Source: Acidobacteriota bacterium | GTDB taxonomy: Bacteria; Acidobacteriota; Holophagae; Holophagales; Holophagaceae | Assembly (NCBI GenBank): GCA_021802985.1 | Contig: JAJZQW010000020.1 | Span: forward strand, 1-36,164 | Length of the DNA stretch: 36,164 nt | Reading direction: 5' to 3' | Part shown: positions 21,740-33,991 of the stretch, one piece after another | Numbering within the stretch: position 1 is the first letter of the stretch | Layout: each line of letters starts with the position of its first letter | Notes under the pieces: model-generated | Told to the model about the DNA's origin: nothing | The model's database searches: none | What the model saw: the letters and a program-made list of their open reading frames with translations, nothing else | Made by a program: the position numbers and the translations under genes

Positions 21740-22545
21740 GATGGGAACACCTCAGGATGATGGATGAGTAATGCGCGGGTCGCGTCCAGCCACGCCGCAG
21801 GCGGAATAACTTCGGCGCGCAGCGCCGAAGCCAGCCCCACGCCCGTCAGGACCTCCGCCGACAAAACTCCCTGCCAGTTGTTGGCCAGGGTCTTGCGCCG
21901 ATGGGCGAAGGAGCGGTGCAGCACCGCCAGGAGGGGCTTCCGCTCGGCCAGGGTGGGCGCCTCCCCGCGGGGCTCGAAGAGCACGACGGCGGAATCCACC
22001 TTCGGAGCGGGGCGGAAGGACCCGGGCCCCAGCTTCGCCAATCGGGTAAGGCGGGCGCAGAGCTGGGCCAGGACGGAGAGGGGGCCATAGGCCTTGGTGC
22101 CCGGCTCCCCCATGAGCTTCTGGGCCACCTCCAGCTGGAACATCAGGACCATGCGCTCCCAGGGGACCGCCTCCGTCAGCATCCGGGTCAGGATGGGCGT
22201 GGCGGCGTTGTAGGGCAGGTTCCCCACCACCGACCAGGGGGCACCCTCCGGAAGGGCGATCCGCACGGCATCCCCCTCCAGCAGATGGAAGGCGGGCTGT
22301 CCCACGAATCGGTCGCCCAGCAGGGCACAGGCCTCGGGATCCAGTTCCACCGCCCAGAGGGGCCGCCCATCGGCCAGCAGCCGCGCCGTCAGCACACCGG
22401 GGCCCGGACCGATCTCCAGCAGCCGGGGAGCCGACGAGGCCAAGGCGGCGTCCACGATGGTCCGGATGACCCCCTCGTTCACCAGGAAATTCTGCCCGAA
22501 GGCTTTCTTGGCACGCAGCCGACCGGTGGAATGAAGTTCCTGCAC
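21736..22545 (-). CDS. rsmA: RsmA (KsgA), 16S rRNA A1518/A1519 dimethyltransferase
   Basis: Dimethylates two adenines in helix 45 of 16S rRNA. 269 aa: RAKKAFGQNFLVNEGVIRTIV at the N-terminus, SAM motif I LEIGPGPGVLTARLL (about 44-58), motif IV VGNLPYNAATPIL (about 106-118), and the C-terminal FRPAPKVDSAVV with SFAHRRKTLANN. The start is GTG at 22545 with AGGGTGAAGG upstream. It forms a coupled pair with rnj. Confidence 0.95.
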   Translation of the reverse strand: MQELHSTGRLRAKKAFGQNFLVNEGVIRTIVDAALASSAPRLLEIGPGPGVLTARLLADGRPLWAVELDPEACALLGDRFVGQPAFHLLEGDAVRIALPEGAPWSVVGNLPYNAATPILTRMLTEAVPWERMVLMFQLEVAQKLMGEPGTKAYGPLSVLAQLCARLTRLAKLGPGSFRPAPKVDSAVVLFEPRGEAPTLAERKPLLAVLHRSFAHRRKTLANNWQGVLSAEVLTGVGLASALRAEVIPPAAWLDATRALLIHHPEVFPS

Positions 22546-22565: not shown

Positions 22566-22589
22566 ACGGGGGCCCTGACGGGCCCCCGT
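22566..22589 (-). terminator. Hairpin terminator after pilY1
   Basis: ACGGGGGCCC and GGGCCCCCGT form a perfect 10-bp stem with a 4-base loop, 25 bases past the pilY1 stop. There is no long T run after it on the minus strand, so it is a weak intrinsic terminator or an RNA 3'-end stabiliser. Confidence 0.55.
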
Positions 22590-27489: not shown

Positions 27490-28803
27490 TCAGTTGAAGG
27501 ACAAGCCGAAGTGTCGGGGCACCATGTACAAGGTCTGGGTGCGCTCCTGGTAGGCCGCGATGTTGCCAGTGGCCGAATTCTCAGCGCGCTTGATGGCACT
27601 CCGGGTGGTGAGGTCCACCCTCACCACGAGCGGGGTGTTCCGGAACCAGTTCGGGTCGTTGGTATTCGGGGCGGAGGGCAGCCCCAATGAGGAGAGCTGT
27701 GTGTTGACCGTGGCCAGGATCCCGCTGGTCCATCCGCTGTCGAAGTCGTTGGCCGTGCTCCCCCACCCTGCCCAGGTAGCGGCCAAGGTTGTCTTGGTCG
27801 GGTCCGGGTTTTGATAAGCACTCAGGTAGACTTTGAAGCCGGTGACATCCTCCGCGATGATGGACTCCAATGTGTCGTCCGGCACGAACCCGCCCGAGGC
27901 ATAGGTTCCCTGCTGTCGAATCAGGCAGGGGATTCCCACGTTCGGGTTGGCTGGATCCAGGTTGCGAGCTTGAATGCTGTAACGCACCATCTGAGCCGGT
28001 CGCACGAACAGCACAGGGGCACCACCCGTGGATAACGCGCCGTTGATGGTCCCAGGTGTCGTGAAGGTCCCATCCCCGGCGAAGTGCCGATCCTTGTTCA
28101 AGGGGTTGATGCCAGTGGAGAGGCCCATCTCGGTATCCGGCACAGCCTGGGGTTTGAAGGTTACCAGCGGGGTCGAGCCCGATTGCGTCACGCCCGTAAT
28201 GGCCATGGGACCCCACTGGTCCTTGAATACCGCCACCAGGCTGCCCTGATTGTTCTTCACCATTTCTGCGGCAGTGCTTTCCAGTGTTTTGGCGTAGGAA
28301 GGATCGCTCAACATGACTTCCATCGTCGTATCGAGCTTCGCGACATCCGCCTGGCTGCTCACCAGATCAGCGTTCGAGGTCTGGGCGAAGGTCGCTCCCG
28401 CCGAGGCGTACAAGCGTCCCTCAAAGGGCAGCGCCTCATCGAGGTAGAAGTTCAGCTGGTCCGTGAGTGCTTCTGCGGTTGGAACATCTGTGCCGGTATA
28501 GGTCTGGTTGGGAAGGATGTAAAACCCCGGGGCGGTCGCGCTGAATGTCGGATAAGACGTGAGGTTGGTGAGGTACTGCCCGGCGGCATTGAGATCGTCG
28601 AAGAGCAGATCCATGGCCATGCGGTTCCTACGGCCACTGCTGATGCTCTCGCTCGACCGGTAGAAGGTGTTCATACTCGACTGGAACACCTTGGCCATGC
28701 CTGCCATGAGGACAGCCATGAAGACCAGCGCGACCAAGAGCTCGACCAGGGAAAAACCATCCTGGGCGTCCTGCGAAATGGGCGACAGGGAGGGCTCAGG
28801 CAT
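27490..28803 (-). CDS. pilW: PilW-like minor pilin
   Basis: 437 aa. The class III prepilin signal is QDAQDGFSLVELLVALVFMAVLMAGM: cleavage after Gly, then FSLVE with Glu5, the recognition pattern of PilD peptidase. A long globular domain follows, larger than in Pseudomonas PilW. GSGRRNRM-like helix sequence (SESISSGRRNRMAMDLLFDDLNAAGQYL) is typical for PilW. The 5' end overlaps pilV by 8 bases and the gene is 15 bases before pilX. Confidence 0.85.
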   Translation of the reverse strand: MPEPSLSPISQDAQDGFSLVELLVALVFMAVLMAGMAKVFQSSMNTFYRSSESISSGRRNRMAMDLLFDDLNAAGQYLTNLTSYPTFSATAPGFYILPNQTYTGTDVPTAEALTDQLNFYLDEALPFEGRLYASAGATFAQTSNADLVSSQADVAKLDTTMEVMLSDPSYAKTLESTAAEMVKNNQGSLVAVFKDQWGPMAITGVTQSGSTPLVTFKPQAVPDTEMGLSTGINPLNKDRHFAGDGTFTTPGTINGALSTGGAPVLFVRPAQMVRYSIQARNLDPANPNVGIPCLIRQQGTYASGGFVPDDTLESIIAEDVTGFKVYLSAYQNPDPTKTTLAATWAGWGSTANDFDSGWTSGILATVNTQLSSLGLPSAPNTNDPNWFRNTPLVVRVDLTTRSAIKRAENSATGNIAAYQERTQTLYMVPRHFGLSFN

Positions 28804-30000: not shown

Positions 30001-30145
30001 GGGTCACCTTTCGGTTGTTTCAAGCATCGGCTGGAAGAGCAGCCGGGCCCAGGTTGAAATAAATGTTCGGGTCGAATGACTTGAGGAAGAATACCCCCGC
30101 TTGTCATCCGAACGTCATTGAAGAATGTAGTATTTTATTACACTA
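30001..30145 (-). promoter_or_regulatory. A+T-rich upstream region of the pilin operon
   Basis: This 145-base stretch between priA and fimT is strongly A+T-rich for this genome. It contains an imperfect palindrome TAGTGTAATAAAATACTA (minus strand, 30145-30128) that overlaps the priA stop, and two GTCAT copies 11 bases apart (30105-30120 region). No clean sigma-70, sigma-54 or sigma-28 match was found. It is the probable promoter/operator of the pilin operon by position. Confidence 0.35.
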
Positions 30146-32509
30146 GCCAAACTGCACGGGATCGCGGTCCAGGCTGATGGCGCCCCCGGGGGGGAGGGGC
30201 GAGCGGCGCAGGACTTCGCTGAGGGCGCCCCGCCCACCCTTGAGCAGGAGGTGCATGCGCCAGCGGTCCCGAACGCGCGGCACGGGGGCCTCCAGGGGGC
30301 CGAGGACGCGGAGGCCGGGTACGGTCAGGCGGGCCTTGAAGGCCTCCAGGGCCTCCTGGGCCTCCCGGATCGAATCGGCCTCGGCGCGGTAGAGGGACAG
30401 GGCCGTGAAGGGTGGGTAGCCCAGGCCTTCGCGGAAGGGCAGTTCGGCGGCGGCGAAGCCCTCGAAATCCTGAGCCAGGGCGAAGGTGATGGCCGGATGG
30501 TCCGGGGAATAGGTCTGGAGGATGACCCGGCCCGGCAGGTCGGCCCGCCCGGCGCGGCCCGCGACCTGGGTAAGCAACTGGAAGGTGCGTTCGGCGGCCC
30601 GGAAGTCCGCCACTTTGAGGCCCTGGTCCGCATTCAGCACGCCCACCAGGGTGAGGCCCGGAAAGGTGTGTCCTTTCGCCAGCATCTGGGTGCCGACCAG
30701 GATGTCCACTTGGCCCTTTTCCGCGGCGAGGAGACCGGCCTCCAGGGAGCCCCGGCGCCGGGTGGTATCCCGGTCCAGGCGCAGGATGCGCGCCGCGGGG
30801 AAGAGGGTGTGGAGATGTTCCTCCACCTGTTCCGTGCCCTCCCCCACGCCCCGCAGATGGTCGGCGCCGCAGTCCGGGCAGGCCTCCGGCGGCACGGTCT
30901 CGAAGCCGCAGAGATGGCAGCGCAGGCGCCAGTCGCCCCGGTGGTAGGTGAGCGAGATGGCGCAGTGGGGACAGCCCAGGGCCTTGCCGCAGGCCCGGCA
31001 CATCCAGAAATTTTCGTAGCCGCGCCGGTTCAGCAGCAGCAGGGATTGCTCACCGCGGGCCAGGGTCTCCGTCATCGCCTGCATCAGGGGTGGGGCCAGG
31101 ATCACCTTGCGGCGGGCCTGTCGGAAGGCCTCCCGCAGGTCCACCACTTCCACCGTGGGCAGGTTCACGCCCGCCGGGCGCTCGCGAAGGCGCAGCAGCC
31201 GGTAGCGCCCGGACTGGGCCGCATGCCAGCTCTCCAGGCTGGGGGTGGCGCTGCCGAGAATCACCGGACACCCCTCGATCTGGGCCCGCTTCACGGCGAG
31301 ATCCCGGGCGTGGATCCGGGGATGTTCCTCGGACTTGTAGGACCCCTCCTGCTCCTCGTCCACCACCACCAGCCCGATATCGCGAAGGGGGGCCAGCACG
31401 GCGTTGCGCACCCCCACAAAGAGGTCCGCCCCGTTGCCCAGCAGCCGCACCACGTCGCCATGTTTCTCTCCGGCGTTGAGGCCCGCGTGGCCCACGGCGA
31501 CCCGGCCCGGGAAGCGGGCCTCCAGGCGCTCCAGCAGACTCGGGGTGAGGCCGATCTCCGGCACCAGCCAGAGCACCCGCTTCCCCGCGGCCAGCACGCG
31601 CTCCGCCAGGGCCAGGTAGACCTCGGTCTTGCCGGAGCCCGTGACGCCCTGCAGAAGGTGGACGCCGAAGCTGCCCAGGGCGACGCCATCAAGGGCCACG
31701 CGCTGTTCCTCGTTCAGGTCCACCACGCGATCCAGTCCGGCCTCGCGCCGCTGGGCCAGCAGGTCCATCCGCTTCATCCGTTCGATGAGGCCCCGCTTCT
31801 CCAGGGTGGCCAGCACCGAGGCGCCCACGCCCGCGGCCTCCAGCAGTTCCGGTTCCATCAACGCGCCCCCGGAATCCTCCAGGGCCAGCAGCACCTTCGC
31901 CTGGGCGGGCGTCACCCGTGCCGGGTGGGGACGGCCCGTGAGCCGCGCCTCCGTGAAGCCTGCCCCGCGCAGGTTCTGGCGATGCAGCAGGGTGGGCAGG
32001 AGGGTGGGCTCCCGGTGCCAGGCCTCGCCCAGCTCCGCCATGGCCTGCCAATCGCCCCGCTCCCGATAGAAGGACAGTCGCTGTCCATCGTCCTCCGACT
32101 CCCAGCGCGGCAGCAGCGCCTGCGGCAGGCACAGCGGTAGGAGGTGCGCCTCCAGGCAGCCGTAGTAGCGGGCGGCGAAGGCCAGCAGCTCCCGCAGGCC
32201 CGGCGGCAGAAGGGGAAAGGGATCCACCACACCTTCGATGGGGCGCAGTTTCAGGTTGCGGCCAGGAAGTCTGGACGCGCTGGCCGGGCTCTGCCCGGTC
32301 AGCGCGTGGGGGGCCGCGGGGGGGACATCGCGAGCGGTAGCGAGCAGGCGGTCCCCCCCCGACAGGTCAGGCCCCATGGCCAGGCCCACCGCGCTGCTGT
32401 TCCGCACCTTCACGCGGACCCGCACCCACGCAGGCAGCCCCTCCGGCGCCAAGTAAGTCAGCGGCGGCAGGGGGCGGTTGAGCTGGACGAGTGTGGGAAC
32501 GAGGGCCAT
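30143..32509 (-). CDS. priA: PriA, primosomal helicase N'
   Basis: PriA reloads the replisome at stalled forks. The ATG at 32509 starts the family N-terminus (LVPTLVQLNRPLPPLTYLAPEGL); the longer frame to 32734 lies over tsaD. 788 aa: DNA-binding domain, Walker A GVTGSGKTEVYL (about 285), DEEQ box VVVDEEQEGSYK (about 380), zinc cysteines CRACGKALGCPHC, CHLC and CPDC (about 500-555), and TQMLAKGHTFPGLTLVGVLNAD. Residues about 46-85 (DLSGGDRLLATARDVPP and on) are an in-frame palindromic insert lacking family counterpart; LKLRPIEGVVD resumes the fold. Divergent from tsaD with 23 bases between. Confidence 0.95.
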   Translation of the reverse strand: MALVPTLVQLNRPLPPLTYLAPEGLPAWVRVRVKVRNSSAVGLAMGPDLSGGDRLLATARDVPPAAPHALTGQSPASASRLPGRNLKLRPIEGVVDPFPLLPPGLRELLAFAARYYGCLEAHLLPLCLPQALLPRWESEDDGQRLSFYRERGDWQAMAELGEAWHREPTLLPTLLHRQNLRGAGFTEARLTGRPHPARVTPAQAKVLLALEDSGGALMEPELLEAAGVGASVLATLEKRGLIERMKRMDLLAQRREAGLDRVVDLNEEQRVALDGVALGSFGVHLLQGVTGSGKTEVYLALAERVLAAGKRVLWLVPEIGLTPSLLERLEARFPGRVAVGHAGLNAGEKHGDVVRLLGNGADLFVGVRNAVLAPLRDIGLVVVDEEQEGSYKSEEHPRIHARDLAVKRAQIEGCPVILGSATPSLESWHAAQSGRYRLLRLRERPAGVNLPTVEVVDLREAFRQARRKVILAPPLMQAMTETLARGEQSLLLLNRRGYENFWMCRACGKALGCPHCAISLTYHRGDWRLRCHLCGFETVPPEACPDCGADHLRGVGEGTEQVEEHLHTLFPAARILRLDRDTTRRRGSLEAGLLAAEKGQVDILVGTQMLAKGHTFPGLTLVGVLNADQGLKVADFRAAERTFQLLTQVAGRAGRADLPGRVILQTYSPDHPAITFALAQDFEGFAAAELPFREGLGYPPFTALSLYRAEADSIREAQEALEAFKARLTVPGLRVLGPLEAPVPRVRDRWRMHLLLKGGRGALSEVLRRSPLPPGGAISLDRDPVQFG
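32262..32372. repeat. Compound palindromic insert inside priA
   Basis: Two hairpins lie in tandem. The first is GCGCTGGCCGGGC / GCCCGGTCAGCGC (32277-32289 / 32293-32305), a 13-bp stem with one mismatch and a TCT loop. The second is CGGGGGGGAC / GTCCCCCCCCG (32317-32326 / 32351-32361) around GCGAGCGGTAGCGAGC. The stretch is in frame in priA and supplies about 35-40 extra residues. The outer limits are estimates. Confidence 0.75.
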
Positions 32510-33571: not shown

Positions 33572-33991
33572 ATGCCCGACATCAAGTCCCTATGCGATCA
33601 GATCCGCCAGACCTCGTTCCAGATCCACAGCTACCTTGGAAGCGGTCACCTCGAGAAGGTGTACGAGAACGCTCTGGCCCACCGATTGCGCAAGGCTGGA
33701 CTGAAGGTCGAACAGCAGCGCCCCATCAAAGTCTTCGATGAAGACGGCACTCTGATTGGAGACTACCTGGCCGATCTGTTTGTAGAAGACGTACTGGTTG
33801 TAGAGCTGAAAGCCGCAAGGAGCCTGGCTCCCGAACACGAAGCCCAGGTGCTGGGCTACCTCAAAGCTTCGAGGATCGAACACGGGCTATTGATCAACTT
33901 TGGAGCCACGAAATTCGAGATCCGCAAATTTATTTGGAATGAAAATCAGCCACAAAGAACACAAAATACACAAAAGAATGAAGCTTTGTGA
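33572..33991 (+). CDS. GxxExxY protein 2, PD-(D/E)XK nuclease-like
   Basis: 139 aa. Motif G25-HL-E28-KV-Y31 (in LGSGHLEKVYENAL) gives the family its name. Nuclease-like residues: D68 (YLADLF), E78 and K80 (VVELK), the same D-x9-E-x-K as the first copy, then EHEAQVLGYLKAS and GLLINFG. It is more A+T-rich than tsaD and gatC. The last residues (QPQRTQNTQKNEAL) are the translation of a hairpin repeat that begins inside the gene. The weak repeat-like GCCACAGGAAACGCC just before the ATG may be a worn left end. It differs clearly from copy 1, so it is not a recent duplicate. Confidence 0.88.
   Translation: MPDIKSLCDQIRQTSFQIHSYLGSGHLEKVYENALAHRLRKAGLKVEQQRPIKVFDEDGTLIGDYLADLFVEDVLVVELKAARSLAPEHEAQVLGYLKASRIEHGLLINFGATKFEIRKFIWNENQPQRTQNTQKNEAL

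Follow-up and report, generated by a model that had tools for sequence, protein, structure and literature searches.

The hairpin-rich segment of PriA in the window (the whole stretch of DNA that was analysed, 36,164 nucleotides) is a copy of a repeat, about 98 nt long with two hairpins, that is dispersed over many unrelated genes. This repeat is probably a non-autonomous element of the REP/RPE kind, dispersed in the family Holophagaceae, whose copies survive at stop sites and whose insert in PriA is a tolerated passenger. This adds an apparently undescribed family, from an understudied phylum, to the few repeats that are written into proteins, and the empty and filled orthologous sites provide a clean case for the spread of REP-like repeats without a known transposase and for their siting at stop codons. 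Searches of the open-licence literature brought up no description of such an element from Geothrix.

The insert in PriA

The window is contig C21 of a Geothrix draft genome (G000; 2.3 Mb, 72% complete). The features of its priA gene are the following:

30143-32509, minus strand: priA, 788 aa; Pfam PriA_C, Zn_ribbon_PriA and DEAD matched, 3'BD from residue 85 only
32268-32366, minus strand: whole two-hairpin element in PriA sense; matched by covariance model R1 over positions 1-100 of 100 (89.4 bits, E 4e-17)
32318-32359, minus strand: the hairpin that comes first in the reading direction of the gene; inverted repeat I5, whose arms 32351-32359 and 32318-32326 pair at 9 of 9 positions and enclose 24 nt containing GCGAGCGGTAGCGAGC, with GCGAGC repeats in the loop
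32275-32307, minus strand: the hairpin that follows it; inverted repeat I1, two 15-nt arms (32275-32289 and 32293-32307) pairing at 14 of 15 positions round a 3-nt loop
32367-32370, minus strand: CTGA directly ahead of the element, where most Geothrix sites have their stop codon
32270-32276, minus strand: far end of the element, degenerate, CGTCCAG against the consensus CGTCTGA (from the sequence and the end profile)
32258-32365, minus strand: PriA codons 49-84, in place of 5-6 residues of the relatives, net +32 codons

The CTGA at 32367-32370 is out of frame in PriA (GGG CCT GAC CTG) and the element is translated as protein. Compared with the priA of genome G001, 111 nt of the window stand opposite 15 nt, a net gain of 96 nt (32 codons). 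The folding of the segment is more stable than that of shuffled sequences, both as DNA (z -3.7, 0 of 200 shuffles equally stable) and as RNA (z -4.0, 1 of 200). The inverted repeats, the folding and the net gain bear out the tandem hairpins that the first-pass annotation had placed in frame in PriA; the stem that it gave as 13 bp does form a hairpin, but its length is 15 nt with one mismatch.

A search of the window for perfectly paired stems of at least 9 bp identified three other hairpins, of 9-10 bp (21810-21830, 22566-22589 and 27605-27627), against 1.45 per shuffle. The short ORF behind tsaD at 33572-33991 presumably resembles the GxxExxY family.

Structure and covariation of the element

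The element is formed, in gene-sense order, by (C/T)TGA, 8-9 nt, a G-run hairpin, a C-run linker, a second hairpin and CTG(A), and its end profile shows (C/T)TGA at one end and CTG(A) at the other. The G-run hairpin was counted at 14 pairs and its loop holds two GCTCGC-type repeats; the second has 15 pairs and a 3-nt loop, with CGT lying within the stem. The covariance model R1 was built from 63 copies (63 of 72 site representatives). In their alignment 92.3% of the cells pair (95.6% in helix 1), and changes on both sides were identified in 16 of 29 pairs overall and in 12 of the 15 pairs of the second hairpin. Doubly changed cells numbered 141 against 38.6 in shuffles; the covariation score was 0.215 against 0.073 shuffled (0 of 500 as high), and 0.036-0.118 in a control where the partners were slid by 1-3 columns. 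The sequence of the stems changes from copy to copy, but the arms remain complementary.

Complementarity may instead be kept by template switching during replication, one arm rewriting the other with no selection of the hairpin, a possibility that deserves serious attention even if we lean against it. The mechanism itself is described in PMC8794818. It would suit the second hairpin of same-site copies across species, where 83 kept doubles were counted with 12 single G-U changes, but the same comparison yielded 130 single pair-breaking changes; these counts come from many non-independent comparisons which may mix array members, and exchange between dispersed copies would look alike. When the PriA copy of G000 is compared with that of G065, the stem of the second hairpin shows 3 double changes with pairing retained and 2 single changes that break it.

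Neither hairpin is followed by a T-run in any of the 63 aligned copies, as judged by eye, and they do not qualify as Rho-independent terminators. Regarding the features of DDE-type MITEs, the alignment has no terminal inverted repeat, and the CTGA ends fit a duplication of 4 bp as well as a site-specific junction. Rfam 15 gave no match above the gathering score, the best being PtaRNA1 with 21.9 bits for a cut-off of 47.

Distribution

Searched as DNA, the PriA copy of the window had matches with E <=0.001 in 43 of the 47 Geothrix genomes. Of the 93 genomes of the class, 62 were matched by the covariance model: all 47 Geothrix genomes, 15 of 30 other Holophagaceae and none of the 16 from outside this family. 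Scoring covered at most 43 candidates per genome; matches per Geothrix genome ranged from 1 to at least 43, with two genomes of the set at this ceiling, and G018, G027 and G078 are high-copy genomes. Eight were identified in the genome of the window, with one clear match inside the window itself. The first-pass annotation had offered uniqueness of its motif in the genome as evidence against a mobile element: its literal 16-mer is indeed unique (0 mismatches), a misleading result since the loop is the variable part of the element, which as a whole has the eight matches just mentioned. The collection comprises 92 loci with copies that were fetched (12 and 80) plus a pattern scan; among the matches listed in the latter (80 of 120 stretches) every title named Geothrix, Holophagaceae or unspecified Acidobacteria. 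Head-to-tail arrays also occur, in which one copy follows another every 98-99 nt or so. A phage origin is unsupported, with no exact match in viral contigs, and no recent transposition of the element between strains was seen.

Position behind stop codons

Genes were called with a codon-usage gene finder trained on Geothrix. For 53 of 116 copies the stop codon of a gene in the same sense is found at one exact position. Reduced to distinct sites (205 copies to 96 sites, from two partly overlapping samples, leaving out 20 of 225 profile matches that had no G-run anchor or were too near the start of their sequence stretch), the first base of the stop lies 10-13 nt before the G-run of the first hairpin in 53 of the 96 Geothrix sites; 8 sites are in called genes (5 sense, 3 antisense) and 35 are elsewhere. 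At random intergenic positions of the same loci this register occurred in 21 of 2775 cases (0.8%). The first-pass annotation had depicted a palindromic element entering genes. Its dispersal and the in-frame copies (PriA, LeuS, HrpB, HypF and the SufS N-terminus) agree with that picture; genes as the main target do not, given 53 sites exactly behind a stop codon and only 8 in called genes, three of these antisense.

The stops at the 53 element sites were TGA (47), TAA (5) and TAG (1), against 223, 17 and 88 among 328 background stops; syntenic 20-kb stretches round priA in 10 genomes contributed background stop counts. TAG is avoided (p 6e-6) and CTGA favoured (p 4e-5). CTGA stops numbered 36 against 17 non-stop TGA sites, the background being 122 CTGA stops against 627 intergenic CTGA; the odds ratio of the excess is 4.3 even when all 43 non-stop sites are counted, only 17 of which have TGA at the stop register. 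The syntenic stretches contained a single weak match to the element and provided no empty sites. In other genera, 1 of 15 copies was at the stop register (a sixteenth, partial match is not counted), so that stop anchoring is not general, a contrast with Geothrix that is tentative because of the training of the gene finder on that genus. Since the register is nearly a single position, targeting and selection can be told apart by test.

An unlikely account of this siting is that the element is mainly a 3'-end signal of Geothrix (a termination brake, a protector of the mRNA 3' end or a Rho-related terminator), selected as such and only secondarily mobile. The exact register behind stops, the constant sense orientation there, the excess of CTGA stops over background and the strong stem covariation all agree with it, but a signal of this kind is hard to reconcile with hairpins lacking a T-run, with match numbers going from 1 to at least 43 within one genus, with relatives lacking the element at the sites tested and with the absence of stop anchoring in other genera. 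The rarity of G-U intermediates among the changed pairs is also unlike selection on RNA only.

Empty and filled sites

The clearest site is the gene at locus L144, the one site where the junctions are clearly readable. The filled form reads GGACTGA, element, CTGA and then GGCTACCCC, and its counterpart in G000 reads GGACTGACCGACTACCCC: there is a single CTGA when empty and a CTGA at both junctions when filled. At pyrE, 9 of 9 empty relatives have a TAG stop, but G018 and G027, both filled, have a TGA adjoining the element; insertion may thus have altered the stop. Two further loci, L219 (G000, behind typA) and L250 (G018, behind a gene of the L144 type), contain a short stretch like both ends of the element with the middle lost, possibly relics of deletion.

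Copies within genes

In LeuS the copies of four genomes (G014, G016, G020 and G034) share one site and may go back to one or to several insertions, the LeuS tree of 250 nt giving no resolution; the G020 contig may be a contaminant judging from its pyrE end. HrpB of G016 contains it in frame. In sufS of G023 (L089) the element comes after an ATGA stop/start overlap and so supplies about 35 residues as the new N-terminus of SufS. The other loci fetched were empty in all cases: 9 of 9 for LeuS, 10 of 10 for HrpB and 9 of 9 for SufS. One peptide of the element recurs in PriA, LeuS, HrpB and the SufS N-terminus. A single shared frame for all intragenic copies was dropped: in HypF and in the N-terminus of a decarboxylase (L277, L314) the element is read in another frame, and three copies are antisense (in a histidine kinase, in a fusion of endonuclease III with a periplasmic-binding protein and at the C-terminus of a membrane-fusion protein). 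The core is free of stops in 116-129 of 139 copies per frame, so survival in frame requires mainly a length divisible by three. The fusion just mentioned (L327, 3589-5124, minus strand) presents endonuclease III-like and periplasmic binding protein domains in one frame with the antisense element between them, and was possibly made by insertion of the element.

PriA was compared with its relatives, the check proposed by the first-pass annotation: among the 32 Geothrix genomes viewed, 30 PriA N-termini have no insert, with only 5-6 residues between the GLAMGPD strand and KLRPIE. The insert is at one shared site in G000 and G065 only, with about 38 residues there. In the two insert-free PriA proteins compared, the Pfam profile of the 3'-DNA-binding domain matched at positions 11-96 or 4-96; in both insert-bearing proteins only 52-96 matched, and therefore the insert splits this domain. 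The Pfam matches of the helicase, zinc and C-terminal domains are retained. A structure prediction for PriA from 14 close sequences was set aside (mean pLDDT 43.8).

It is very unlikely that the PriA segment is a functional extension selected in this clade. It is open in two species in the same frame, with the residues GGDRLLA-AR-VP alike in both, as such an extension would be; but the same peptide is found in LeuS, HrpB and the SufS N-terminus, so that the likeness belongs to the element, and the segment breaks the 3'BD profile and is absent from 30 of the 32 proteins viewed. As a tolerated passenger, the element probably entered near the middle of the 3'-DNA-binding domain profile before the species of G000 and G065 split, and would since have been carried as an insert of 32 residues. 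A chance palindrome or low-complexity coding sequence, which a GC-rich genome might suggest, is practically refuted by the folding against shuffles, the covariation and the dispersal over many unrelated genes.

Possible mechanism

The element might move as a folded single strand, which would agree with its end motifs and hairpins, or as another hairpin substrate, with CTGA serving as target and end motif and with a mobilising enzyme that would act in trans. Insertion behind a stop would leave the protein unchanged, for which reason such copies may survive, and the few intragenic copies may be those that landed in frame in tolerant loops. By analogy with the REPs of E. coli, a strong RNA hairpin that begins, at the usual sites, no more than about 12 nt from the stop would be expected to delay termination or shield the 3' end. 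A more specific version can be put forward only tentatively: a mobile two-hairpin element of Holophagaceae for which an enzyme cuts and joins at (C/T)TGA, the stop codons of Geothrix being a safe harbour across the genome where the stop is regenerated and a ribosome-slowing hairpin is placed behind it, and the inserts of the PriA type being misfires.

The search for transposases was limited to Y1_Tnp. Of the 47 Geothrix genomes 5 have it, as do 2 of the 9 genomes searched from other genera, and no element was present in the Y1 loci examined. An origin from IS200-type sequences was rejected, as the IS200-like copies in G067 and G019 lack the element and end differently (TTAC.., CCTAA..). Those at five loci of G067 (L159, L163, L165, L167 and L169) are near-identical, start with TTACCAACTC, end in a CCCCCGGCTCTGCCGGGGG hairpin and are unrelated to the element.

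Comparison with known systems

The Rickettsia palindromic elements (RPE), according to portions of PMC10969869 and PMC3733652, are short palindromic repeats that lie in frame within genes unrelated to one another and encode a conserved peptide. The Geothrix element shares with them the in-frame copies in unrelated genes with empty orthologues (PriA, LeuS, HrpB and SufS). Compared by the descriptions given in those portions, RPE are known mainly from intragenic sites, whereas the Geothrix element is mainly behind stops, is formed by two unlike tandem hairpins and belongs to another phylum.

The GTAG REPs are intergenic near gene 3' ends, their GTAG often supplies a TAG stop and copies are found in DNA repair genes, as stated in sections of PMC3733652. 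Going by these sections, the likeness lies in the intergenic position near gene 3' ends, with some intragenic copies. The Geothrix element differs from the GTAG REP/RAYT system in having CTGA ends and TGA stops with no GTAG tag, no linked Y1 transposase, and a second hairpin of 15 pairs with a 3-nt loop. The CGTC REPs, in the sections of the same paper that deal with them, have an unpaired CGTC tag, stems of 8-9 bp, loops of 4-5 nt and no transposase association. The element resembles them in this last respect (for Y1_Tnp, the only one searched) and in its far end CGTC(TGA), but its CGT is paired within the 15-pair stem and its loop has 3 nt.

In E. coli, ribosome stalling is reported for REPs that lie within 15 nt of a stop, which make up about 11% of the REPs of that species by the count given in excerpts of PMC12306157. 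The hairpin of the Geothrix element has a similar position with respect to the stop, in 53 of 96 sites and in nearly one register, and a translational effect behind stops is plausible on account of the stalling that these excerpts report. In our judgement the element works like REP and RPE yet falls outside both the GTAG/RAYT and the CGTC class, and constitutes a new family with an unusually exact registration on stop codons.
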